Virus record (IMG/VR): IMGVR_UViG_3300047157_000105
Coordinates: 1-64,000 of that record
Source: a virus
Direction: 5' to 3' (one strand)
DNA: 64,000 nucleotides
Shown here: positions 11,664 to 24,643 of the stretch, one piece after another
How positions within the stretch are numbered: the stretch's first letter is position 1
How the letters are laid out: the number at the start of each line of letters is the position of its first letter
The notes under the pieces: model-generated
The model's database searches: none
What the model saw: the letters and a program-made list of their open reading frames with translations, nothing else
Told to the model about the DNA's origin: nothing
Translations under genes and position numbers: made by a program

Positions 11664-12495
11664 TACAATTGGTTATAAGAATGGTGAATACCTGCCACTA
11701 GAATATTGTGGACCAACAATACTAGATTTTGGATTTATTCATAATGATGCAACATATGATGTAATGCCTATATATGATGGTAAAGCATTCTGTTTAGATA
11801 GACACTTAAATAGATTTGTAGCTTCAGCTGAGTACTACAATCTTGAGTTACCGTATATACATTACTTAGGAATTGCTAGTGAGTTAATGGAAAGGAATCC
11901 AGGTATAAAAAATGGATTTATGTGGTTCATAGCATGGAGAGGTTATCCTGAATCTGGTCAACCAAGAGACATTAAAAATGCACCAGTTAATGTAGCAATG
12001 TATATAAAGCCAAGCTATCCTTTGACAGCAAAAGGTGGTGCAGTAAATGTACAATTATCGGATCAGCCTCGAGTACCTGACAATTATTATAACCAAAGGG
12101 CAAAAAACTTTTCTTGGATTGATTTGACAAGAGCTCAGTTAGGTAAATCAGATATGTTTGACACAGTTGTATTATTAGATCATACTCGTCATATAACAGA
12201 AGGCCCAGGATTTAATGTTGGATTTGTGTGGGAAGATATAGTATATACACCATTAAATAATTGTTTGCATGGCGTAACAATGAGTGTTGTCGAAGATATA
12301 TGTGATGATTCTCCAGGAATAACATTTGTTAGGAATCATTTAGAAGAAGATGTGTGGCATTATGCTGAAGAGATCTTTTTGGCATCATCATCTGGTGGTA
12401 TAACTGCAACACAAAGAACTGGAAAAATAACTGAATGGCTACAACGTGAATATATAGAGAGAACAAAACATTATGACTACACAACAGAACTATGA
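11656..12495 (+). CDS. Class IV PLP aminotransferase, branched-chain aminotransferase-like
   Basis: About 279 residues from ATG 11656 (an in-frame TTG lies one codon upstream). Fold-type IV features in order: TILDFGFIHNDATYDVMPIY near the N-terminus; FCLDRHLNRFVASAEYYNL; NQRAKNFSWIDL with the presumed PLP lysine; HITEGPGFNVGFV corresponding to the conserved E...N.F region; and TPLNNCLHGVTMSVVEDI corresponding to the TP...L.GITR block. Such enzymes transaminate Leu, Ile, Val or D-amino acids, or act as aminodeoxychorismate lyase. The cassette context suggests making a modified amino acid or amino sugar precursor; the substrate is inferred only. Confidence 0.75.
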   Translation: MINTIGYKNGEYLPLEYCGPTILDFGFIHNDATYDVMPIYDGKAFCLDRHLNRFVASAEYYNLELPYIHYLGIASELMERNPGIKNGFMWFIAWRGYPESGQPRDIKNAPVNVAMYIKPSYPLTAKGGAVNVQLSDQPRVPDNYYNQRAKNFSWIDLTRAQLGKSDMFDTVVLLDHTRHITEGPGFNVGFVWEDIVYTPLNNCLHGVTMSVVEDICDDSPGITFVRNHLEEDVWHYAEEIFLASSSGGITATQRTGKITEWLQREYIERTKHYDYTTEL

Positions 12496-13114
12496 TTTAA
12501 AATTAGATTTTGATGATGTATTAATAAAACCTCGTAAATCAATTAAGCCTCTTACAAGGCAAAGTGTTAATATAGAAATACCTTGGTTAGATAAAACATC
12601 GCATCCTATTGTTATTGCAAATATGCCTTCAACAGGAACATATGAGATAGCAAAGCATATGACACCAATGAAAGTGTTTACATTTATTCATAAAGAATAT
12701 ACTGTAGAAGAGCACAAAATCAATTTAGCTATGATGAAAGATCGTAGTTACATTGCTATTACAAGCGGTGTGCAATCATGGGATATAGAAAGAACTATTG
12801 AAGTTATAAGTGAATTTAATGATGTCGGCATAATTAATGTTGATATAGCTAATGTCTATGCTAATGTTAGTGGAATGATTAAAGCTATTCAAACATATAG
12901 AAAACACTTTCCACATATTAAAATATCTGCTGGTAATATATGTGATAAAGATCTTATGGAAGAGTTAGTTAATGCCGGTGCAGATTATATTAAAGTTGGT
13001 GTAGGTTCAGGTGCTGCATGTATTACTCGAACAGAAGTTGGTGTGGGTATTCCACAGTTGAGTGCTGTATTAGAATGTCATGAAGAAGCACAAAAGCTTA
13101 GGATTGTAAAATAA
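12473..13114 (+). CDS. guaC: GMP reductase, N-terminal part (frameshifted)
   Basis: 213 residues. LDFDDVLIKPRKS, the (beta/alpha)8 core and VGVGSGAACITRTEVGVG, containing the catalytic-loop Cys, match GMP reductase (GMP + NADPH to IMP + NH3). PQLSAVLECHEEAQ is also family-typical. The frame stops at TAA 13112-13114 just before the conserved SDGG element, which continues in the -1 frame from 13102. The two parts span about 345 residues, the normal length of GuaC. It overlaps the aminotransferase by 23 nt. Either a one-base lesion or error, or slippage on A AAA before the stop. Confidence 0.85.
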   Translation: MTTQQNYDLKLDFDDVLIKPRKSIKPLTRQSVNIEIPWLDKTSHPIVIANMPSTGTYEIAKHMTPMKVFTFIHKEYTVEEHKINLAMMKDRSYIAITSGVQSWDIERTIEVISEFNDVGIINVDIANVYANVSGMIKAIQTYRKHFPHIKISAGNICDKDLMEELVNAGADYIKVGVGSGAACITRTEVGVGIPQLSAVLECHEEAQKLRIVK

Positions 13115-13176
13115 TATCTGATGGTGGATGTGTTACTTCAGGCGATGTAGCTAAAGCAATTGCTGCTGGTGCAGAT

Positions 13177-13509
13177 ATGGTTATGATTGCTGGTATGGTT
13201 TCTAGTTGTTATGAATGTAGTAATATGGTAGAGATTGATGGTCAACAATATGTAAATCTATATGGATTAGGTTCAACAAAACAATATAATATACATGGTG
13301 TAACTGAAAAGGAATATAGACCAAATGAAGGTAGAGATCTAATGATACCTGCAAAAGGTCATATCAAAGATATTATTAATCAAATACTTGGTGGATTAAG
13401 AAGTGTATGTACTTATGTGGGTGTATCTCACATTACACAGCTATCTTCTCATGCTGAGTTTATTAGAGTTAATAATACTCATAATAGAAGCTTAGAGAAA
13501 TATGGATAA
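13177..13509 (+). CDS. guaC: GMP reductase, C-terminal part (frameshifted)
   Basis: The ATG used here is internal: the frame is open from 13102 and encodes CKIISDGGCVTSGDVAKAI, the phosphate-binding region. It continues with ADMVMIAGMVSS, YGLGSTKQYN and GGLRSVCTYVGVS, all characteristic of GMP reductase. Without the N-terminal half it cannot be an active enzyme. It ends 8 nt into the next gene. Treat together with 12473-13114 as one gene. Confidence 0.85.
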   Translation: MVMIAGMVSSCYECSNMVEIDGQQYVNLYGLGSTKQYNIHGVTEKEYRPNEGRDLMIPAKGHIKDIINQILGGLRSVCTYVGVSHITQLSSHAEFIRVNNTHNRSLEKYG

Positions 13510-14215
13510 TTATTTACAACAGATTTTAAATCATAAACGATTTGGAATAGGTATTGTATCATCGGGAACAACAGGAGAACCAAAGCTTATATGGAGATCG
13601 CCTGATAATCTTCGTGCATGTAATGAAGTTGCTATACATGCTCAGCAATTAACTAGCAAATCTAAAGTATTAACGGTAACAAAAACCGATCATGCTGGTG
13701 GATTACTATTACAAACATTGCCGGCATATACCTTAGGGTGCAAAGTCATTGATGTAGAAAAGTTTAATGCATTTAATTTCTTAAAGAAGATAAAAGGATA
13801 CACACATACATTCCTAACACCTGAGCAAATGAAAGCTGTGATGATGACCAAAGGTTTTAAAGATTGTGACTTAAGTGGTATACGAATATTAGGTGGTAGT
13901 AATCCAGTTAGTTGGGAAATAATAGAAGCGTTTGTATCAAAGGGAGCACTTGTTCAACCTAATTGGGGTATGAGTGAAATTGGCCCGATGGTAATCAATA
14001 TTGAGATAGATAGTATAGAGCATATAGAATATTTAAAACAAAGAACGCCTAAAAGTTATACTATATTAGGTAATGCATATTGGTGTGATTGGAAAATAGT
14101 TGACCATGAGTTATATGTTAAAAGCGATATGTGTATTGAACCTGGGTGGTTTGCTACAGGAGATATCGTTGCTTTAGATATGGGTAAAAGAATGTATTAT
14201 AAGGGAAGAAAATAA
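13502..14215 (+). CDS. Minimal adenylate-forming (AMP-binding) enzyme
   Basis: 237 residues, about half the usual length of acyl-CoA synthetase or adenylation-domain proteins. Ordered core motifs are present: P-loop-like VSSGTTGEPKL (about 17-27), a substrate-side GGSNPVSW, NWGMSEIGP (A5-like) and WFATGDIVALD (A7-like), ending at YYKGRK (A8-like hinge). The N-terminal subdomain and the C-terminal swinging lid are missing. It might activate a carboxylate to an acyl-AMP, possibly delivering it to a partner; whether it is active without the lid is unknown. Confidence 0.75.
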   Translation: MDNYLQQILNHKRFGIGIVSSGTTGEPKLIWRSPDNLRACNEVAIHAQQLTSKSKVLTVTKTDHAGGLLLQTLPAYTLGCKVIDVEKFNAFNFLKKIKGYTHTFLTPEQMKAVMMTKGFKDCDLSGIRILGGSNPVSWEIIEAFVSKGALVQPNWGMSEIGPMVINIEIDSIEHIEYLKQRTPKSYTILGNAYWCDWKIVDHELYVKSDMCIEPGWFATGDIVALDMGKRMYYKGRK

Positions 14216-15524: not shown

Positions 15525-16166
15525 ATGGGGTTTAATAGATTTTTAGAAAGAACTATTGCAAAATCACAACAATGTAATAGAAATTGGGATCTATCTAAGC
15601 AAATCCCAGATGAGGATATTAAAACAATGGAGCAGTCTGTCAAGCATTGCTCGTCTAAACAAAATCGTGTATTTTATAAAGTTCTGTATACACAAGATCG
15701 TGATAAGATTGAAAGAATACATGATGCTACAGATGGTTTTACCTATGGTTTAGATATGGAAAAAGATAAAGATGGGAATTTTTTATCGACCACTAACCCT
15801 CAAGTACTAGCAAATACATTATTTATTTTCGCAAAAGATAGAGATGAGAAAATAGATTATGCTAGAATAGCTGAAGAGAAAAATCTTGGTATAGAAGAAG
15901 GCAAAGACAAAATGGATGAAGACCGTTCAATTGGAATTGCTGCAGGATATTTAACTCTCACTTCTAATCTTTTAGGATATGAATCAGGTTGTTGCCAATG
16001 CTTTAATGAGGCTGATGTTAAAGATATATTAGGTATAGATGAAGATGTATTTTTACTAATGGGTGTAGGTTATGGTGATAAGACAAGATTGAGAAAAGAA
16101 CATCATACAGATCCTAGCTTTACATTTCCTTCATTTAAGAAAGATATAAAAGTACAAAGAGTATAA
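15525..16166 (+). CDS. Nitroreductase-like flavoprotein (tentative)
   Basis: 213 residues. An N-terminal helix followed by CSSKQNRVFYKVLYTQD matches the S..N.QP region that binds FMN. The C-terminal stretch SIGIAAGYLTLTSNLLGYES, then FNEADVKDILGI and FLLMGVGYGDK, follows the usual nitroreductase order (helix, lid, final GYP-type strand). It would be a dimeric FMN enzyme using NAD(P)H; substrate unknown. It converges on the minus-strand cyclase gene with no spacer. Confidence 0.6.
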   Translation: MGFNRFLERTIAKSQQCNRNWDLSKQIPDEDIKTMEQSVKHCSSKQNRVFYKVLYTQDRDKIERIHDATDGFTYGLDMEKDKDGNFLSTTNPQVLANTLFIFAKDRDEKIDYARIAEEKNLGIEEGKDKMDEDRSIGIAAGYLTLTSNLLGYESGCCQCFNEADVKDILGIDEDVFLLMGVGYGDKTRLRKEHHTDPSFTFPSFKKDIKVQRV

Positions 16167-18008
16167 TTAAGGGACTAAGTTATATATTTCTATAACATCT
16201 TCCTTACCTTTCACTCTAATATCACCTATCTTATGAGATCGTATAATCATATCATCTGGCAATTGAGTCATTGTCATGGAGGAATAAATTGTTGGATATT
16301 GTAAATAATCTCCCCTTCCTGCTGTTGCTTCTAGTCTTGCTGCTAGATTAACAGCATCACCTATTACACTAAAATCAAATCGTGTAGAGCTACCCATATT
16401 ACCGATAATAGCTGGTCCAGTATTTACACCTGTACCAACGTTAATATCAGGTAAGCCTCTATCCTTATATCTTTGTTTTAGTTCTAATGTCTTTGCTTCT
16501 ATTTCAACAGCGGACTTCACCGCCATCTCAGCATGATTAGGCATATCTAATGGTGCACCAAACACAGCCATAATACAATCACCCATAAACTTATCAACCA
16601 TACCACCATTATTCAATATAATATTTGTCATCTCATCTAAGAACTCATTCACTAATACAACTAAACCTTCTGGGTCATCTTTGTTTTTATAATATTCTGA
16701 GATAGGTGTGAATCCAATAATGTCCATAAACAAATAAGACATATCTTTTCTTTCACCACCAAGCTTAAGTAAGTCAGGATTTTTCTGCAGTGCTTTGACT
16801 TGACGTGGATCTAAGTAGTGTTCAAACTGTTTCTTAATCTGTTGCTTCTGTCTAAACTCTAATATGAACCTATTAAACGTGGCATGGAATCCTACAATAA
16901 AGAATGTTAATAATGCCCATGTAATATCTACAAGAACTAATTGTGTGCTAAACATATGTTGGAAGTAATATATACCTCCACCGAATATACCTAATAATGA
17001 TACACCTATTATCCAATAAGGTGTAAATCGTGTAATAAGTATGATTAATATACCTAATACGAATCCAGCCAGTATCTCTATGAGGCTATCATATCTCTTT
17101 ATTGTTTCTCCATCTAATATTGTTTGGAGAGTTTGTGCAGATATAACATAATCATATTGTTCACCCACAGGTGTTGCAACAACTCCGCCTAATCCCTCTG
17201 CTGTCATAGCAACAATGACTGTTGTACCCGCAAGTGGCGTGAAGTCTTCAGACGCAGCACTCATTGTTTTAAATTCTTTATTCCATCTTACCCATACACG
17301 AGCATTCGTATCTGTATTAATTGTAGCATAAGCTGGAACTCTCATAGCCACAATACCAGTCTCATCTGCTTTGACTTGATATGATGGGTCACCTACAGCA
17401 ACACGAATAGTTTCTATTGCCATATTCGGATATACTTCCTCACCTATCTTCATAAGCAATGGAACTCGTCTAACTACACCATCAATCTCAGGAGCTGTAT
17501 TAATAACACCAACACCATTCGCACACTCAGCAAGTTTAGGTAATGGTCCAACCATACCATTCCACTCAAATAGATATGGTAACGGATCACCTATCTTTGC
17601 CACACCTCTCGGCACTGGATTAGATGTTCTCTTTTGTGCTGTACCTGTTTGGGCAATGACTGTGCCATACGTTAGTGTTTCACAGAATACATCATCACTA
17701 CCAAACCTATCTTCCTCACTAAACAATATAGGCATAACAATAATACCTGTTTCTGCATTCCTTAATTGAAGTATGAGGTTAGCAAGTACATCACGATCCC
17801 ACGGCCATTGGCCATGTTCTTCGATTGCTGCTTCATCGATGGTAACTATTGTAACTGCTTCAGAAGGAGTCTTCTCTTCATTTTGCAATACATAGTCAAA
17901 TGATTTAAGTCTGAGTATCTCTTTGACCCATGGATCTTGCAGACCGATATAGGTTAATGCTATAAGGGTAACAAATGCGATAGACCAATGTGATAATATT
18001 TTCTTCAT
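16167..18008 (-). CDS. CHASE2-domain membrane adenylate cyclase
   Basis: 613 residues from the ATG at 18008 (the frame extends to 18050, but a late box lies inside that extension, so I choose the inner start). An N-terminal membrane anchor is followed by a periplasmic CHASE2 sensor (about 25-315, including VTIVTIDEAAIEEHGQWPW). Three transmembrane helices follow (about 320-400, e.g. LIEILAGFVLGILIILI), then a class III cyclase domain (about 435-613). Cyclase residues visible: metal-binding Asp in FMDIIGFT and in VDKFMGD, the purine-selecting Lys of VDKF and Asp of FDFSVIGD, and transition-state Asn/Arg in GDAVNLAARLE. This predicts ATP to cAMP controlled from the periplasm. Last gene of the minus-strand curli-like region. 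Confidence 0.9.
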   Translation of the reverse strand: MKKILSHWSIAFVTLIALTYIGLQDPWVKEILRLKSFDYVLQNEEKTPSEAVTIVTIDEAAIEEHGQWPWDRDVLANLILQLRNAETGIIVMPILFSEEDRFGSDDVFCETLTYGTVIAQTGTAQKRTSNPVPRGVAKIGDPLPYLFEWNGMVGPLPKLAECANGVGVINTAPEIDGVVRRVPLLMKIGEEVYPNMAIETIRVAVGDPSYQVKADETGIVAMRVPAYATINTDTNARVWVRWNKEFKTMSAASEDFTPLAGTTVIVAMTAEGLGGVVATPVGEQYDYVISAQTLQTILDGETIKRYDSLIEILAGFVLGILIILITRFTPYWIIGVSLLGIFGGGIYYFQHMFSTQLVLVDITWALLTFFIVGFHATFNRFILEFRQKQQIKKQFEHYLDPRQVKALQKNPDLLKLGGERKDMSYLFMDIIGFTPISEYYKNKDDPEGLVVLVNEFLDEMTNIILNNGGMVDKFMGDCIMAVFGAPLDMPNHAEMAVKSAVEIEAKTLELKQRYKDRGLPDINVGTGVNTGPAIIGNMGSSTRFDFSVIGDAVNLAARLEATAGRGDYLQYPTIYSSMTMTQLPDDMIIRSHKIGDIRVKGKEDVIEIYNLVP

Positions 18009-18013
18009 AAACC

Positions 18014-18021
18014 TATTTATA
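18014..18021 (-). promoter_or_regulatory. Late promoter box TATAAATA (minus strand)
   Basis: Exact consensus on the minus strand (TATTTATA on plus). Five bases separate it from the cyclase ATG at 18008, so +1 would coincide with the start codon. It gives the cyclase its own late promoter. Confidence 0.55.
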
Positions 18022-18050
18022 TTAATTCTTGCGTGACTTGAACTGAGCAA

Positions 18051-18866
18051 CCACTAGGATGTAGTGCATGTATTTGTTAAACTATATGATTGCGCTGTGC
18101 TATTATACTGTAATAAATCTAAATCTGTTGTATAAGCTACCAGTTAAATCTATTGTTGCGGTATGGTAGCATCTCCTTCTTTGCATAATGATTCTTCTCC
18201 ATTATCAGTTATATACTATAAGTTATATGATTTATCTTGCCATTGCCTTCTTGTTTAAAGAATATATCATTATTATCACCACCATAATGTATAAATTTTG
18301 CCTCATGGTCTGCATTACCTGTACCAGTTTCTTGTGACCGCCTTTAAATTTGTGTCACCACTATGAAGATCTAATTGACAGTGTGCCCACCATATTCTGC
18401 TGTAGCATAGAATCACATGTTGTATGAAGTTCGCATCAGCGTCAAATGTTTTACCTTGGCAAAAATGAACAGTATTATCATTAGTATTAATATGAAATCC
18501 TATTCGATTAGCATCTGATCCTGTAGTATTACAATATTGCTTCGATACTTTAAAGTATTACCTGAACCATCTAAGTCACCACCCCAAGATTGCCAGAACC
18601 CCAATGCCGTAGTATAACCCACACTAATGCATCTTCATTTCCCTCTTGGTCAATTGTAACTGTATTATCATCATGTGCTACCTTAGAAATTGTACTACAT
18701 TATCATCACCATCTTGGGTTATATCTATTGTTAGGTTATCGCTCGTACCAACTTGTGTAATGTATATTTCGTTATTGGCAAACACAGAACCAGCCATAAA
18801 AATTATTGGAATATATAATATTATTAATACTAATATGCTACTGACTTTGAATAATAGTGATTTCAC
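18051..18866 (-). pseudogene. Second curlin-repeat secreted protein, broken by frameshifts
   Basis: Begins with GTG 18866 behind a GGAGGAAT ribosome site. A signal peptide (LVLIILYIPIIFMAGSVFA) is followed by curlin-type units IYITQVGTSDNLTI and ITQDGDDNVVQF. The frame stops at 18678, but related sequence continues in other frames: HDDNTVTIDQEGNEDALVW, then ALGFWQSWGGDLDGSGNTLK, then SDANRIGFHINTNDNTVHF, then DLHSGDTNLKAV. At least three or four frame changes are needed, the first by one missing T in a T-run. No other gene is seen in this 600-bp stretch. Pseudogene or indel-rich assembly. Confidence 0.7.
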
Positions 18867-19092
18867 TTTCTATTCCTCCTAATTCAAAATCTATTAACTC
18901 GAAATCCCCTTGTTGTATATTCATCATATAACTATTTTCTTGTTCAAGTCTTAATTCAACCACACTACCACTTGCAGCTTCTCTATGCCAATACCATTGT
19001 GGGTCTTCATCTAATATGGTAATGCCTGTGTCTTTATCTTTACCTAATGTAAAATCGTATGAACCTTTTTTCTTATCAAATTCAGAACGCAT
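18838..19092 (-). CDS. Hypothetical protein of the curli-like cluster
   Basis: 84 residues from ATG 19092. The frame is open further upstream (an in-frame RQLALQ precedes the Met) and there is no Shine-Dalgarno site, so the true start is uncertain and fusion to the FecR gene by a frame change is conceivable. Contains EDPQWYWHRE and a C-terminal beta-rich block (NIQQGDFELIDFELGGIESE). Overlaps the start of the second curlin gene by 29 nt. Not recognised as CsgE, CsgB or CsgC. Confidence 0.5.
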   Translation of the reverse strand: MRSEFDKKKGSYDFTLGKDKDTGITILDEDPQWYWHREAASGSVVELRLEQENSYMMNIQQGDFELIDFELGGIESEITIIQSQ

Positions 19093-19100
19093 TTGTAATG

Positions 19101-19937
19101 CTAATTGACGATATTCAGTTGTTCTAGAATATCTGCTAAGAAATTCTGATCTAAGAAATCTGTATCAAGCATTGATACATACTCATCTTCTTCTATTTCT
19201 AAATAGTCTATTTCTAATTCTTCAAACTTTAGAAAGTCTATGTCAAGAGCAGTAGCAACTTTATTTAATTCTTCATTCTGCATTGCCTCTTCGATCTCGC
19301 GAGGTTTAGATATAATAAGTAAGTTATTAATGAATGCTTCTTCTAGATCTACAATCACAGGTTTTAATGGCCTCGAAGAAATAGTGTCCACAACGGTAGC
19401 CTGGAAGGCCTGATTCATAATAACCATGCCCGCATCGGATTCAACTGATATCTCACCTACAAAGCAGTTACCATTTGTATCACATGACGGCAGTAGAATA
19501 ATAGTAGAACTACCTACCTCGTCTATCGTCATTGAAAAATCTGTACCTCGAACACCGATAGTAGCTGTTGGTGTTTTTATTTGTACTGCAGTTGGGGTGG
19601 TCTTTGCAATCTGACCTGAAGCATATCTTACTGTACCAAGTGCTGCTTTTAGTGATAGCGACCCCTTCTTAGTATTTGGGTCATAAACAAATTCATCAAT
19701 AATAAGTTTGGAATGCTGTGTAACATCTACCCTCGTATCATCAATAAAGCCAATAGCGACTTTACCTTTACCAGTTTTAACAGTATCATACTGGAATATA
19801 TCTAAATCTTTTTCGGCATCAACATCTTCACCATCCGTTCTTTCAATATTGGCATTACCTTCATGTAAGATAACATCGCCAATTATACTAGCGAATGATG
19901 AAAATGTTAAACACCATAATATAACAAAAAGCCGCAC
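19101..19937 (-). CDS. FecR-domain secreted protein
   Basis: 278 residues. Signal peptide MRLFVILWCLTFSSFAS, then a FecR-like beta domain (about 20-160): GDVILHEGNANIER, DTVKTGKGKVAIGFIDDTRV, GTVRYASGQIAKTTPTAV and IKTPTATIGVRGTDF, the last being the family hallmark. An acidic Glu/Asp/Leu-rich C-terminal tail follows. It acts in the periplasm or outer face. FecR-domain genes often sit beside CHASE2 cyclase genes in bacteria (remembered association), as here. It probably provides a periplasmic ligand or scaffold for sensing. Confidence 0.85.
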   Translation of the reverse strand: MRLFVILWCLTFSSFASIIGDVILHEGNANIERTDGEDVDAEKDLDIFQYDTVKTGKGKVAIGFIDDTRVDVTQHSKLIIDEFVYDPNTKKGSLSLKAALGTVRYASGQIAKTTPTAVQIKTPTATIGVRGTDFSMTIDEVGSSTIILLPSCDTNGNCFVGEISVESDAGMVIMNQAFQATVVDTISSRPLKPVIVDLEEAFINNLLIISKPREIEEAMQNEELNKVATALDIDFLKFEELEIDYLEIEEDEYVSMLDTDFLDQNFLADILEQLNIVN

Positions 19938-19938
19938 A

Positions 19939-21048
19939 TTAATCCCTCTGGATTATATCTACATTAGCTGATGCACCATTAACTGTCATTGTAATAACAT
20001 CACCAGAACCACCAGTTTGTAAGATAACATAATCTGCAGATGCACCATCATGTGTTAATGATAATGTACTTGCGTTATCTTGGTCAATATCAGCTACAAA
20101 GGTTGCACCATCTACATCCATGTTGACTGTACCTGTGCTTGTTTGTTCTATACTGATATTAGCACTTGCTCCGTTTGCATCTAAGTTAATAGTACCTGTG
20201 CTTGTCTGGTCAATATCAAATGTACCACCAGCACCGTTTAAACCATCCGAAGTTTGTCCAAGAATAGTTCCATCAGTATTAAATGTTGCATGACCTGTCT
20301 GATTAATATTAACTGTCTTCACAGCGCTTGCCGTACTTCCAGTGGTTGTCATTGTTACTGTACCACCCGCTGTTTGAGTAATATCAATGTTTTGTGAATC
20401 ACCTGTTGTAGTTACAGTTGCTGAGTTATCATATACACCTGATTGAACAACATCAACATCAGCAGTGATACCAGTTTGAGTCATAATTAAAGTATGACCT
20501 GCAACATCTCCATTACCATCAATATCGATTAGATAGTTATTTGAATCACCATTAATTGTTAATCTTAATATTGCACTTGCACCATCGATAGTAGCTGCAA
20601 CAACAGTACTGTCCGTACCTGATGCACCAACAATATCAATATCGGCATTATCACCCGAAGTAGAACCACCAACATCAATGTCAATATCTTGTGAGTTACC
20701 CGTAAAAGTAATTACAGCATTGACATCATCACAACCACTTGTGCTATCTGCTGGGTCACAATTGAAATCAATATTGTTACTATTACCTGTAGTACTCCAT
20801 GTACCAACAAAGTTATCACCGTTTATATCAAAGGTGATTATATTACTATTACCAACCTGGTCAATATTAAAGTTTGTTGCAGAGCCAGACACGGTGGATG
20901 CTGTAGTTGAATTACCTACCATATTACCATCACCATCCTGGAGTACATCAAAAACTAATGAAGCACCAGCCTGTGTTACATAAATCTTATTTGTTGCCAT
21001 TGCTGGCAAACTCATCAAAGCCATAATAAAGAATGTCAGTAATTTCAT
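19939..21048 (-). CDS. Curlin-repeat (CsgA-like) secreted protein
   Basis: 369 residues. Signal peptide MKLLTFFIMALMSLPAMA, then about fifteen to twenty degenerate curlin-type units built on D(I/V)(x)Q.G.(A/S)N spacing, for example FDVLQDGDGNMVG, FNIDQVGNSNII, VNINQTGHATF, FDIDQTSTGTIN and ISIEQTSTGTVN. Very rich in Asp, Asn, Thr, Gly, with hardly any Lys or Arg. This is the layout of curli subunits, though much longer than E. coli CsgA (about 150 residues) and more acidic. Predicted substrate of the CsgG/CsgF encoded just upstream in the operon. Confidence 0.85.
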   Translation of the reverse strand: MKLLTFFIMALMSLPAMATNKIYVTQAGASLVFDVLQDGDGNMVGNSTTASTVSGSATNFNIDQVGNSNIITFDINGDNFVGTWSTTGNSNNIDFNCDPADSTSGCDDVNAVITFTGNSQDIDIDVGGSTSGDNADIDIVGASGTDSTVVAATIDGASAILRLTINGDSNNYLIDIDGNGDVAGHTLIMTQTGITADVDVVQSGVYDNSATVTTTGDSQNIDITQTAGGTVTMTTTGSTASAVKTVNINQTGHATFNTDGTILGQTSDGLNGAGGTFDIDQTSTGTINLDANGASANISIEQTSTGTVNMDVDGATFVADIDQDNASTLSLTHDGASADYVILQTGGSGDVITMTVNGASANVDIIQRD

Positions 21049-21051
21049 TAA

Positions 21052-21504
21052 CTACTCTCCTTCTTTTGCCTCAATTGGATGTTTCGCCCAATCATCAAGT
21101 GGTATATCAGAATATACAGCATCTTTGTCTACCCGTTCTGCTATAACGGGTTCTGCCCATTCCCATAAACCACACTCTCTTCCTTCATATAACATTTGCA
21201 ATACTGCAAATTCAATAGCTGTACGAATCGCATAATTCACCGGTTCGTTAGCTGCATTGCCAGATTCTATCTCCAATGCTCTTGTTCCTAAATCTAAAAA
21301 TCTAAATACATCTGCACCATTGCTGGTGCTTGCGATTGTTTTAGTAGACGACACAGTCAATAGGATTTCTCCTGTCTGAACTGAAACAAGTCTTAATGAA
21401 ACAGTTACTTGATCAGTTCTATATTGATCGTTAGCTCCTAAACCAAGGAACCTTGCTCCTGCTCCTCCACTTGTAGTGTTCGTATCATACCCTACAATTG
21501 CCAC
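21052..21504 (-). CDS. csgG: CsgG-like curli export channel, C-terminal part (frameshifted)
   Basis: 150 residues. Sequence IVGYDTNTTSGGAGARFLG and DQYRTDQVTVSLRLVSVQTG, then ILLTVSSTKTI and FRFLDLG, follow the second half of E. coli CsgG closely, covering the transmembrane beta-hairpin and C-terminal helices. The listed start is a GTG that would give MAIVGYD; in a normal gene this is the continuation of EGG-IVGYD. It belongs with 21485-21958 as one gene interrupted by one extra base near 21498. Confidence 0.85.
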   Translation of the reverse strand: MAIVGYDTNTTSGGAGARFLGLGANDQYRTDQVTVSLRLVSVQTGEILLTVSSTKTIASTSNGADVFRFLDLGTRALEIESGNAANEPVNYAIRTAIEFAVLQMLYEGRECGLWEWAEPVIAERVDKDAVYSDIPLDDWAKHPIEAKEGE

Positions 21505-21958
21505 CTTCTAATATTAAGCCAGCAAATAACATAGGTGCCAAAGCATCTGTGCTTTGAGCACCATCATATAGTTCTCTTGTACTTCTAATTAATTGTCTTT
21601 CTTTGACTAAGTTATCTAAACTTGCCCTTTCAACAACTGAGAACCAATCACCTTCACCAACTGCCATGAGTGATTGTATAACCCATACATCAGCTCCCTG
21701 AGAAACTGCTGTCGATAATCCTACCTGCTTTCTCTGTCCTGTCTCATCAGGGAAAGCATATACTGCCACGGTAATTTTTACTGGATTTCCATTTCCATCC
21801 GTGGGTGTATTTATCAAATCTGGCATATCTTTTAGCAATTCTTTTGTAGGTGTGCCCTGAACAAAAGGCATTTCTCCTTCTATTGCTTTGGTGTTCTGTA
21901 CCGAACAACCAGCCATAATACAACTTAAAAATGCTATCGCCAAATATTCCATATTCAT
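21485..21958 (-). CDS. csgG: CsgG-like outer-membrane lipoprotein channel, N-terminal part (frameshifted)
   Basis: ATG at 21958 (MNMEYLAIAF) is preferred over an earlier Met because it directly follows the CsgF stop. Lipoprotein signal with lipobox IMAGC, then KITVAVYAFPDETGQRK and FSVVERASLDNLVKERQLIR, typical of the CsgG periplasmic domain. The frame ends EGGNCRV-stop; deleting one A from GGCAATTGTAGGG restores EGGIVGYD and the family-typical continuation. A complete gene would encode about 300 residues, close to CsgG. CsgG forms a nonameric outer-membrane pore. Confidence 0.87.
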   Translation of the reverse strand: MNMEYLAIAFLSCIMAGCSVQNTKAIEGEMPFVQGTPTKELLKDMPDLINTPTDGNGNPVKITVAVYAFPDETGQRKQVGLSTAVSQGADVWVIQSLMAVGEGDWFSVVERASLDNLVKERQLIRSTRELYDGAQSTDALAPMLFAGLILEGGNCRV

Positions 21959-21962
21959 AATT

Positions 21963-22448
21963 TTAAAATTTAAAGTCTCCAACTGGTACAACTAATTCTG
22001 TTAATGAACCATCAGCTGCTGTAACAGTTAACGTAATTGTTTCTGCTGTCTCGTCTTTTACCCATGCCACTGTTGAGCCATCAGGTAAAGTTGCTGTACC
22101 ACTTAATGGGCACTCTAATTCTGTCGTATCTAAATCTTCGGTGCAATTAGTACCGAACATATTATCAACCATTTGTTTGGATAAGTTTGCGAATATACGA
22201 CTTTCTACGTTCGTTACAAACTTTGCAAGGGTGGTATTCTTAGCATCTCTCTCAGCTTTAGCAGCTGCAGATAATAAGTCATCCTTTACAGATTCTTTTC
22301 TATTGTATTCTAGCTGAGATATTGAAAGTACATGACTAGAATATCCTTCTCCACTAAAAGCCGGATTACTAAAATCAAACGTTAAATTACTCGCTTGACT
22401 TATTGTCGTCAGTGTTAGTAGTGTCAGTAAAAGTTTTAATTTCACCAT
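21963..22448 (-). CDS. csgF: CsgF-like curli assembly factor
   Basis: 161 residues. Signal peptide MVKLKLLLTLLTLTTISQAS, then NLTFDFSNPAFSGEGYSSHV, matching the CsgF N-terminus that plugs into the CsgG pore (pattern: T F.F.NP.FGG). A region with Asn/Gln-rich and helical segments and a C-terminal beta domain (TETITLTVTAADGSLTE) follow; two Cys residues in the centre are extra to E. coli CsgF. Immediately precedes csgG, as a functional pair would. Confidence 0.85.
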   Translation of the reverse strand: MVKLKLLLTLLTLTTISQASNLTFDFSNPAFSGEGYSSHVLSISQLEYNRKESVKDDLLSAAAKAERDAKNTTLAKFVTNVESRIFANLSKQMVDNMFGTNCTEDLDTTELECPLSGTATLPDGSTVAWVKDETAETITLTVTAADGSLTELVVPVGDFKF

Positions 22449-22704
22449 GTCTTTCTCTCTCCTGTAATATCATATCTAATTTAGCGTTTAATCTAATTAA
22501 ATCATTATCCAACATTCTTACTCTATCGATTAATGCAATTAAAGTCATATGGCTATCGCCTATAACTGGATCTACCTTTGTAGAAACCCATGTCCATATG
22601 AAGTATATAAAGTAACCCATTGCCAAAGCGGCAATAATAGGAAAACCGTAATCACTAACTAATTGTCCTATCGTTGTTTGTTGCTCTACTACTACTTCTT
22701 CCAT
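22387..22704 (-). CDS. Holin-like (BhlA-type) small membrane protein
   Basis: 105 residues. One transmembrane segment DYGFPIIAALAMGYFIYFIW (about 19-38) is followed by a cytoplasmic helix (LIDRVRMLDNDLIRLNAKLDMIL) and an acidic tail. The (Y/V)GFPI....A.GYF(I/V)Y signature is shared with the adjacent 22704 gene, so the two are paralogues. The layout recalls BhlA/UviB-like putative holins. It overlaps csgF by 62 nt. Confidence 0.6.
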   Translation of the reverse strand: MEEVVVEQQTTIGQLVSDYGFPIIAALAMGYFIYFIWTWVSTKVDPVIGDSHMTLIALIDRVRMLDNDLIRLNAKLDMILQERERHGEIKTFTDTTNTDDNKSSE

Positions 22705-22985
22705 TAGTCTCTCCTCGCATCAGTCTTACCGTCTGCTCTTGCGATTCGATCCGTATCAGGTCTTATACCAAATGCCTGACACATCTTTACATCAATACGT
22801 ATTAATTCACTATTCATAGTCTTTACTCTATTGTCTAATGCTTGTGCAAACATTCTTTGTTGCTTAATGTCTGATTCAACTCCTTCTAATATAAAACTTA
22901 ACGTTAAATATACGAAATAACCTGCTGCTCCTGCACCTACAATAGGAAACCCTACCTCAGTTACTAAATCTAATATGCCTTCCAA
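22704..22985 (-). CDS. Holin-like (BhlA-type) small membrane protein, paralogue
   Basis: 93 residues from TTG 22985, preceded by AGGAG. One transmembrane segment (EVGFPIVGAGAAGYFVYLTL, about 10-29), then a charged amphipathic helix (DNRVKTMNSELIRIDVKM) and a basic tail. Paralogous to the following gene. First gene of the minus-strand curli-like operon, directly downstream of a minus-strand late box. A holin pair at the head of a curli-secretion operon is unexpected. Confidence 0.6.
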   Translation of the reverse strand: MEGILDLVTEVGFPIVGAGAAGYFVYLTLSFILEGVESDIKQQRMFAQALDNRVKTMNSELIRIDVKMCQAFGIRPDTDRIARADGKTDARRD

Positions 22986-23012
22986 ATCACTCTCCTAATC
23001 TATTCATTACTA

Positions 23013-23020
23013 TATTTATA
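23013..23020 (-). promoter_or_regulatory. Late promoter box TATAAATA (minus strand)
   Basis: Exact consensus on the minus strand, 27 nt before the TTG start of the first gene in the curli-like operon. It is divergent from two plus-strand late boxes 13-28 bp away. It predicts late expression of holin-like genes, CsgF, CsgG and curlin. Confidence 0.65.
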
Positions 23021-23047: not shown

Positions 23048-23334
<287 letters not shown>

Positions 23335-23760: not shown

Positions 23761-23891
23761 TGGGAAGTAATTTAGGATTAATAGCTTTCGGGCTTATCGC
23801 GTTATTTGCTACATCATTTATTAAAATTGCAGCGATCGCTGCATTAGGTTGGGGTGCTTATAAAGCCTATAGAGATTGGGGAGCAATGTAA
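23760..23891 (+). CDS. Tiny two-helix membrane protein
   Basis: 43 residues, nearly all hydrophobic: NLGLIAFGLIALFATSFI, then KIAAIAALGWGAYKAYRDW. It would form one long or two short membrane helices. Coupled on both sides by TAATG overlaps with the preceding membrane protein and the lipase. Size and character fit a holin-like or lysis-regulating peptide; this is inference. Confidence 0.6.
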   Translation: MGSNLGLIAFGLIALFATSFIKIAAIAALGWGAYKAYRDWGAM

Positions 23892-24643
23892 TGTCAATAC
23901 GTGAAATGAATTTAAAGGAGAAGAGTCTCCTTTTTGCTAAACTTGCAGCTGATGCATATGGTGATAAACCGGATGTTGTAAAGCTTGCAAAGAAACATGG
24001 TTTTACTAAAACAAAATTTTATGATATAGGTGGAGCTCAAGCATATAGGTTTGAGTCAAAGACTGATGTTGTAGTTGCTTGTCGTGGTACAGAGCCTACA
24101 GAATTTAATGATCTCAAGGCAGATCTCAAAGCATTTCCAGTCAAATCAGAAACAGTAAGTAGAGTACATCGTGGCTTTAAGAATGAAGTTGATGAACTCT
24201 GGCCTGAGGTATCTGTTGATATAATCAATGTAAAGAAACCTTTATGGTTTTGTGGACATAGTTTAGGTGCTGCAATGGCAACTATTATGGCTAGTCGATG
24301 TGCATTGAATTATGATTTTCCAGAAGTTGAATGCTTATTTACATACGGTTCACCTAGTGTTGGTTGGCCTACATATGTTAAATCACTGTTAATATGTCAT
24401 TATAGATGGCAGAATAATAATGATATAGTTACAAGAGTGCCTTTGAGACTTATGAACTATAAGCATGATGGTACGCTAATGTATATTGGACATGATGGAA
24501 CAGTTCATGAAAAGAAAATGGGTGTATGGGCTAAGTTCTCAGATCGCATGAAAGGTATGTGGGGTGGACTAAAATCATTCAAAGTTGATAACTTTTCTGA
24601 CCATGCCATGACAGAGTACATTAAACACATTGAAAATTGGTAG
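23891..24643 (+). CDS. Class 3 lipase (alpha/beta hydrolase)
   Basis: 250 residues from ATG 23891, coupled to the preceding stop. Domains and residues: oxyanion-side VVACRGTEPTEF, nucleophile elbow FCGHSLGAAM (Ser at about 126), acid in NNNDIVTRVP and His in SDHAMTEYI, the order of the fungal-type (class 3) lipase family. Likely hydrolyses acyl esters of phospholipid or lipid A-like molecules. Its place behind small membrane proteins suggests envelope breakdown at lysis. No signal peptide is visible, so it would need release through a holin. Confidence 0.88.
   Translation: MSIREMNLKEKSLLFAKLAADAYGDKPDVVKLAKKHGFTKTKFYDIGGAQAYRFESKTDVVVACRGTEPTEFNDLKADLKAFPVKSETVSRVHRGFKNEVDELWPEVSVDIINVKKPLWFCGHSLGAAMATIMASRCALNYDFPEVECLFTYGSPSVGWPTYVKSLLICHYRWQNNNDIVTRVPLRLMNYKHDGTLMYIGHDGTVHEKKMGVWAKFSDRMKGMWGGLKSFKVDNFSDHAMTEYIKHIENW

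Follow-up and report, generated by a model that had tools for sequence, protein, structure and literature searches.

A curli-type secretion cluster behind a putative late promoter in a T4-like marine phage

Gene content and gene models of the cluster

We analyzed the first 64 kb (the window) of the 140,543-base virus record IMGVR_UViG_3300047157_000105, whose structural region is nearest to those of the T4-like marine phages C48C1, Methylophilales phage Melnitz and Pelagibacter phage HTVC008M. Judged by these relatives, the host is presumably Pelagibacter or another streamlined bacterium of the sea. Between positions 16167 and 23020, the minus strand carries two genes for small membrane proteins (sm1 and sm2), csgF, csgG, a first curlin gene (curlin-1), a FecR-domain gene (fecR), a second curlin gene (curlin-2) and a CHASE2-cyclase gene (Table 1). 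A first-pass annotation of the bare sequence had proposed that these genes form a linked, late-expressed unit, a proposal that would fall if they lay scattered in relatives. Our results showed instead that dozens of contigs, down to about 40% identity, share this gene order; together with Pfam profiles and a candidate late promoter, this supports the cluster as proposed.

Pfam profiles confirmed CsgF (PF10614; 43.3 bits against a cut-off of 25.8) and CsgG (PF03783; E 7.9e-27 and 7.6e-13 on two adjoining open reading frames (ORFs), both above the cut-off). A profile of the relatives' CsgG matches the solved CsgG structure (3x2r) over its whole length with an E value of 9.3e-70, and the lipobox cysteine is invariant among the relatives. 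CsgF had been introduced as the periplasm-side partner of the pore, while published work describes it as an extracellular chaperone (Zaragoza-Solas 2020, PMC7029224). A resemblance of the CsgF C-terminal part to a fucose-binding lectin was discarded, as the match is a sum of repeats that are each insignificant. Within csgG (21640–21760), the window's clade (the window, L004 and L006) has a constriction loop, TGQRKxxGLSTAV, that lacks four residues relative to HTVC008M and Melnitz; the pore might differ in width as a result. The FecR-domain protein (PF04773, E 1.7e-9, above the cut-off) and the CHASE2 cyclase (PF05226, E 3.2e-38; PF00211, E 2.7e-17; both above the cut-off) were likewise correctly recognized at first pass, except that the cyclase start moves from TTG 18050 to ATG 18008, in line with the 609–612 amino acids (aa) of its relatives.

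Compared with a relative (L008), csgG and fecR contain one frame-breaking indel each, and curlin-1 and the cyclase gene none. The breaks of csgG, fecR and curlin-2 are all missing from relatives. In the window csgG is therefore not the single gene first described: its coding sequence changes frame near 21500, while relatives have one intact ORF of about 301–313 aa. A programmed frameshift was ruled out because relatives read csgG in one frame. Similarly, the 84-residue protein listed as a separate gene is the C-terminus of FecR: on the phrog_37870 profile, the FecR ORF covers positions 16–292 and the 84-aa ORF positions 299–381, and relatives encode one ORF of 365–369 aa. This also rules out the 84-aa ORF as a stand-in for CsgE or CsgC. 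A guaC-like gene (GMP reductase/IMPDH-like) at 12473–13509 is split over two ORFs as well (profile positions 2–207 and 232–337), which suggests consensus indels elsewhere in the contig. The single breaks of csgG and fecR therefore look like consensus or assembly errors.

The 64-kb window contains 19 plus-strand and 3 minus-strand copies of TATAAATA, and two of the latter lie at the operon, one in front of sm1 and one in front of the cyclase gene. Among 79 distinct contigs, TATAAATA stands 5–60 nucleotides (nt) before sm1 in 31 and before csgF in 43, nearly always exactly at -13 in the second case, against a background of 0.011 per site; it precedes the other cluster genes in 0–5 of the 79. This enrichment and conservation agree with the late expression proposed at first pass, and we consider the box before sm1 a candidate T4-type late promoter element. 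Late promoters were reported as not predictable in pelagimyophages (PMC7029224), and we found no mention of them in the later account of pelagiphage curli genes (Wittmers 2022, PMC9599517).

Table 1. Features of the curli-type cluster (window coordinates)
Feature	Position	Strand	Basis
TATAAATA, putative T4-type late promoter element preceding the cluster	23013..23020	-	sequence match; conserved in relatives
sm1, 93-aa protein with one transmembrane helix and a charged, coiled-coil-like tail	22704..22985	-	phrog_18771, E 1.8e-29
sm2, 105-aa paralogue of sm1, motif RMLDxDxIRL, overlapped by csgF	22387..22704	-	phrog_18771, E 1.4e-28; alignment
csgF	21963..22448	-	PF10614, E 4.9e-11
csgG, lipoprotein pore, two frames meeting near 21500	21052..21958	-	PF03783 on both ORFs
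curlin-1, 369 aa, signal peptide and repeats	19939..21048	-	weak PF07012; orthologue of HTVC008M gp016 and Melnitz gp101
fecR-domain gene, broken into ORFs 19101-19937 and 18838-19092	18838..19937	-	PF04773; phrog_37870
curlin-2, headless type, only first 62 codons open	18026..18866	-	profile and comparison with relatives
TATAAATA immediately 5' of the cyclase ATG	18014..18021	-	sequence match
CHASE2-transmembrane-class III adenylyl cyclase, 613 aa	16167..18008	-	PF05226 and PF00211

Linkage in phages and relation to bacterial operons

IMG/VR was scanned with CsgG as the anchor, each gene being counted only in contigs long enough to show it. CsgG was accompanied by CsgF (75/75), sm2 (73/73), sm1 (68/68), curlin-1 (58/58), FecR (34/34), the cyclase (14/15) and, by this search, curlin-2 (18/24), counts that are not independent events since many of the contigs are close relatives. 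A cyclase-anchored set shows the same order across about 40–97% identity. The module is also present in contigs of 155, 185, 235, 250, 258 and 383 kb that bear the T4 capsid gene gp23, which extends its range past the published pelagiphages; a literature search found no report of curli in jumbo phages, nor of CHASE2, FecR and curli together. The gp23-bearing contigs of 155–383 kb L322, L331, L343, L370, L375 and L408 carry the curli module with the sm pair, in several of them on the strand opposite the cyclase. Brevundimonas jumbo phages (~350 kb) encode distant CsgG relatives (~32% identity), one of which is annotated as a curli assembly protein.

The paralogues sm1 and sm2 belong to phrog_18771, a family with no assigned function, and consist of one N-terminal membrane helix and a charged tail; the C-terminus of sm1 is RRD or RKD in 116/116 sequences. 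The label "BhlA-like", given to them at first pass, has weak support. The holin family phrog_4898 is matched weakly by 11 of 22 sm1/sm2 members (best E 3.8e-5), over the N-terminal ~19 residues in the window's proteins, while none of the 22 matches a Pfam holin. None matches a kinase family (HisKA, HATPase_c) either. When the scan was anchored on the pair itself, curli genes were found at 62/73 sm1 loci and 72/79 sm2 loci; every locus devoid of them is flanked, on one side or both, by less than 6 kb of contig, and the pair never occurs without curli on adequately long contigs. Several contigs have the pair relocated behind the cyclase or onto the opposite strand, still adjacent to the cluster. 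Among annotated phages, it appears only in the HTVC008M and Melnitz records, which also carry csgF and the cyclase; none of the matches for the sm pair, csgF or the cyclase comes from Pelagibacter phage Mosig. Bacterial metagenome-assembled genomes (MAGs; L164, L166–L169, L173, L179, L221, L223, L240, L423 and L424) labelled Flavobacteriaceae, Sphingobacteriales, Synechococcus and others also hold curli clusters of the phage type, sm pair included, probably because contigs of phages ended up in bacterial bins.

The window adds one more member to an already published module, and its genes are annotated in the HTVC008M and Melnitz records. Work published by Zaragoza-Solas 2020 (PMC7029224) reported csgF, csgG and associated genes in pelagimyophages, and Buchholz 2022 (PMC9004378) proposed a role in lysis timing for the Melnitz curli operon. 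The arrangement "HK"-CsgF-CsgG-CsgA/B-FecR-CsgA/B-AC was then described in podo- and myo-pelagiphages (Wittmers 2022, PMC9599517), so the novelty first claimed for the full combination does not hold for CsgF, CsgG, the curlins, FecR and the cyclase. This pelagiphage type VIII secretion system (T8SS; HTVC008M gp011–gp019) shares with the window, in this order, two small genes, CsgF, CsgG, a curlin, FecR, a second curlin and the cyclase. Its leading gene or genes are labelled histidine kinase in PMC9599517, whereas sm1 and sm2 are proteins of about 80–115 aa with one transmembrane helix and no kinase domain; by position, they are presumably the "HK" genes. The Melnitz operon (MZ577097) agrees with the window in all eight genes and in their order. 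PMC9004378 states that csgA and csgB are missing in Melnitz, yet MZ577097 names two curlin-repeat proteins, both above the Curlin_rpt cut-off. With the curli genes of E. coli (csgDEFG-csgBAC), the phage cluster has in common CsgG over its whole length, the N-terminal part of CsgF and the curlin repeats. It differs in having no CsgE and no recognized csgD or csgC, and in adding FecR, the cyclase and the small pair.

For bacteria, we scanned 84,980 species genomes with CsgG and then applied local profiles. The order CsgF-CsgG-curlin(-curlin)-FecR-CHASE2/cyclase was found in Hyphomonas sp. TMED17 (L170, 705-kb contig) and in two Caulobacteraceae MAGs (L171 and L172), next to ordinary chromosomal genes (acetyl-CoA hydrolase, TonB receptor plug, amidohydrolase). 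These three alphaproteobacterial operons share the gene order of the phages and an orthologous full-length FecR, in contradiction to PMC9599517, which places FecR and the cyclase outside the T8SS operons of bacteria. Such operons are rare (1/299 sampled genomes of the order and 1/385 of the class), and full-length FecR relatives are otherwise absent there. The sm pair is missing from the three operons, and none was found elsewhere in those genomes, in a search made without a positive control. The pair is therefore the phage-specific part of the module.

Curlins, FecR-domain protein and cyclase

Orthologues of the window's curlins in HTVC008M, Melnitz and other contigs score 26.0, 21.8, 33.1 and 28.6 bits with Curlin_rpt (PF07012), above its cut-off. 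AlphaFold returned an all-beta, beta-rich repeat model for curlin-1, with a predicted local distance difference test (pLDDT) of 81 and a predicted template modelling score (pTM) of 0.82. In the window's clade, extra C-terminal repeats make curlin-1 exceed that of other phages, such as HTVC008M, by ~140 aa.

Curlin-2 is an exchange cassette between otherwise near-identical phages. Upstream of curlin-2, L008 and L009 share 98.5% identity over 5 kb, and downstream of it 97.3%; for L132 and L133, the corresponding values are 98.7% and 97.9%. In both pairs, the match ends at the last codons of the curlin-2 signal peptide; it resumes just past the gene in L008/L009 (~200 nt past in L009) and at the cyclase in L132/L133. 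Each time, one partner encodes a headless curlin (274–297 aa) and the other a headed curlin (443–476 aa). More broadly, curlin-2 is less than 75% identical in 18 of 48 contig pairs whose FecR is at least 90% identical. The HTVC008M curlin-2 combines a PA14 head with curlin repeats, each above its Pfam cut-off, and the nearest solved relative of the PA14-type head is the PA14-containing RsgI3; no mention of PA14 was found in PMC7029224, PMC9004378 or PMC9599517. No named domain relative was found for the commoner head type (23 contigs). Exchange of this kind would be typical of exposed, interacting surfaces and unexpected for a lysis pore. A job at the cell surface is therefore favored over cell bursting.

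The FecR-domain protein starts with a signal peptide; an anti-sigma N-terminal domain followed by a transmembrane helix was not found, PF04773 being the sole match. Its domain fold matches the periplasmic parts of anti-sigma regulators (PupR, BDI_1681). It also matches the cell-surface anchoring domain of MpAFP (5ix9) with a fold probability of 1.00 and a root-mean-square deviation of 1.0, and among solved structures this domain is the nearest by sequence to the FecR N-terminal half (E 2.8e-4) and one of the nearest by fold. The likeness covers ~60–70 residues, while the phage protein has 365–370 aa and a curlin-like C-terminal strand. Of 68 distinct sequences, 55 show the C-terminal pattern hydrophobic-x-hydrophobic-x-Q-x(0-2), which many curlin C-termini show too; as the AlphaFold model of that part is of low confidence, the likeness is one of sequence pattern only. 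In other Alphaproteobacteria, the nearest FecR domains lie mostly within very large proteins. The lack of an anti-sigma part, the likeness to MpAFP and the curlin-like C-terminus therefore lead us to favor an anchor or nucleator over an iron regulator as the possible role of this protein.

In the cyclase, we checked the class III residues, namely the two metal Asp, the adenine-selecting Lys and Asp, and the transition-state Asn and Arg. Each of the six positions is kept in 61–62 of 62 relatives, with an exception at Asn in Melnitz, and the protein is thus predicted to be an adenylyl cyclase. Class III cyclases occur in 2 of 60 sampled Pelagibacteraceae genomes, both of which also hold phage-like T8SS clusters with the sm pair.

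Proposed function and alternatives

We consider it probable that the cluster is an operon for type VIII (curli) secretion and surface display, expressed late by the phage, that places curlin-1 and the variable curlin-2 on the infected cell. CsgG and CsgF would build an outer-membrane pore late in infection. Curlin-1 would be the constant subunit of a fiber, and curlin-2 the variable subunit on display, which may or may not bear an adhesin-like head. For the FecR-domain protein, we propose that it may serve as a periplasmic or cell-envelope anchor or base, its C-terminal strand docking to the fiber, while the cyclase would sense the periplasm and make cyclic AMP (cAMP). The inner-membrane sm1/sm2 pair would be a phage-specific addition needed for use of the system during infection. 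The likeliest benefit would be a remodelled surface of the infected cell, which blocks competing phages or holds cells and progeny together.

Several observations weigh against this reading. CsgE (PF10627), detected in the E. coli control, had no match in the 140.5-kb contig. The window's own curlins fall below the Curlin_rpt cut-off of 20.7 bits (14.6 for curlin-1, 20.0 for the curlin-2 fragment), so that their first-pass identification stands through the orthologues and not through the window's proteins, and a fold search of the PDB with the curlin-1 model gave no significant match. Curlin-2 is indeed broken, as first noted, with 13 frame-breaking indels within 0.83 kb relative to L008; this density could stem from genuine decay or from a poor consensus at a population-variable locus. 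The relatedness of the counted contigs tempers the linkage. A cyclic nucleotide (cNMP)-binding domain was recognized in 2 of the 60 Pelagibacteraceae, most of which have no recognized cAMP receptor; none was found in the phage contig. Finally, no clumping of Melnitz-infected cells was seen (PMC9004378), which counts against simple aggregation but is compatible with a surface coat.

The first-pass annotation had left two purposes side by side, export of an amyloid and an outer-membrane opening acting with the holin-like pair in lysis. Our results favor export of a curlin-like protein, given the constant company of curlin-1 and csgG and the exchange of curlin-2. A lysis device, in which CsgG with CsgF acts as a pinholin-like or secretin-like opening and the small proteins are holins, is unlikely. 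It has in its favor the published model for Melnitz (PMC9004378), the putative late promoters and the faint match to phrog_4898. However, CsgG is an outer-membrane lipoprotein and not an inner-membrane pinholin; it always comes with curlin-1 and FecR and usually with the cyclase, none of which lysis needs, and the exchange of curlin-2 would be left unexplained. The supposedly novel CsgF tail, basis of the divergence argument in PMC9004378, is present in bacterial operons too. The absence of a CsgE gate would also suit an ungated CsgG channel admitting large nutrients into the infected cell, as proposed in PMC7029224 and PMC9599517, but this uptake role seems quite improbable: it does not account for the curlins, the FecR tail or the head exchange, which persist wherever csgG does.

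The fiber might instead sit on released debris or virions and aid particle retention or host capture. Late promoters fit this alternative, as do PA14-type heads resembling a solved PA14-containing protein, but no aggregates were seen for Melnitz, and we hold it rather unlikely. That the broken csgG, fecR and curlin-2 mark a captured bacterial operon in decay, under little selection, is very improbable: the nearest relatives are intact, the split guaC-like gene makes the single breaks resemble assembly error, and both the catalytic residues of the cyclase and the gene order are conserved.

A more specific form of the surface-display reading is possible, though we propose it tentatively. The operon would be a fiber-based display machine with a constant curlin scaffold, a FecR anchor with a curlin-like tail, the phage-only pair of inner-membrane sm proteins and a displayed curlin-2 part that phages swap at the signal-peptide junction. 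This part would be absent, a PA14 domain or a domain of alpha/beta look that has no name. The cyclase would make cAMP in hosts mostly without a known receptor, and this cAMP would then work on a target yet to be recognized or extracellularly.

Phages of the most abundant ocean bacteria carry a secretion system that their hosts lack. The exchange of curlin-2 and the obligatory curlin-1 make the question of what the pore does (lysis, uptake or export) testable, with export favored, and the obligate small-protein pair, seen only in the phage versions, offers a clean target for study.

On the plus strand, the cluster is flanked by an AMP-binding fragment (13502–14212) and a nitroreductase gene (15525–16166) on one side, and by genes for a ferredoxin-like protein (23059–23334) and a class 3 lipase (23876–24643) on the other.

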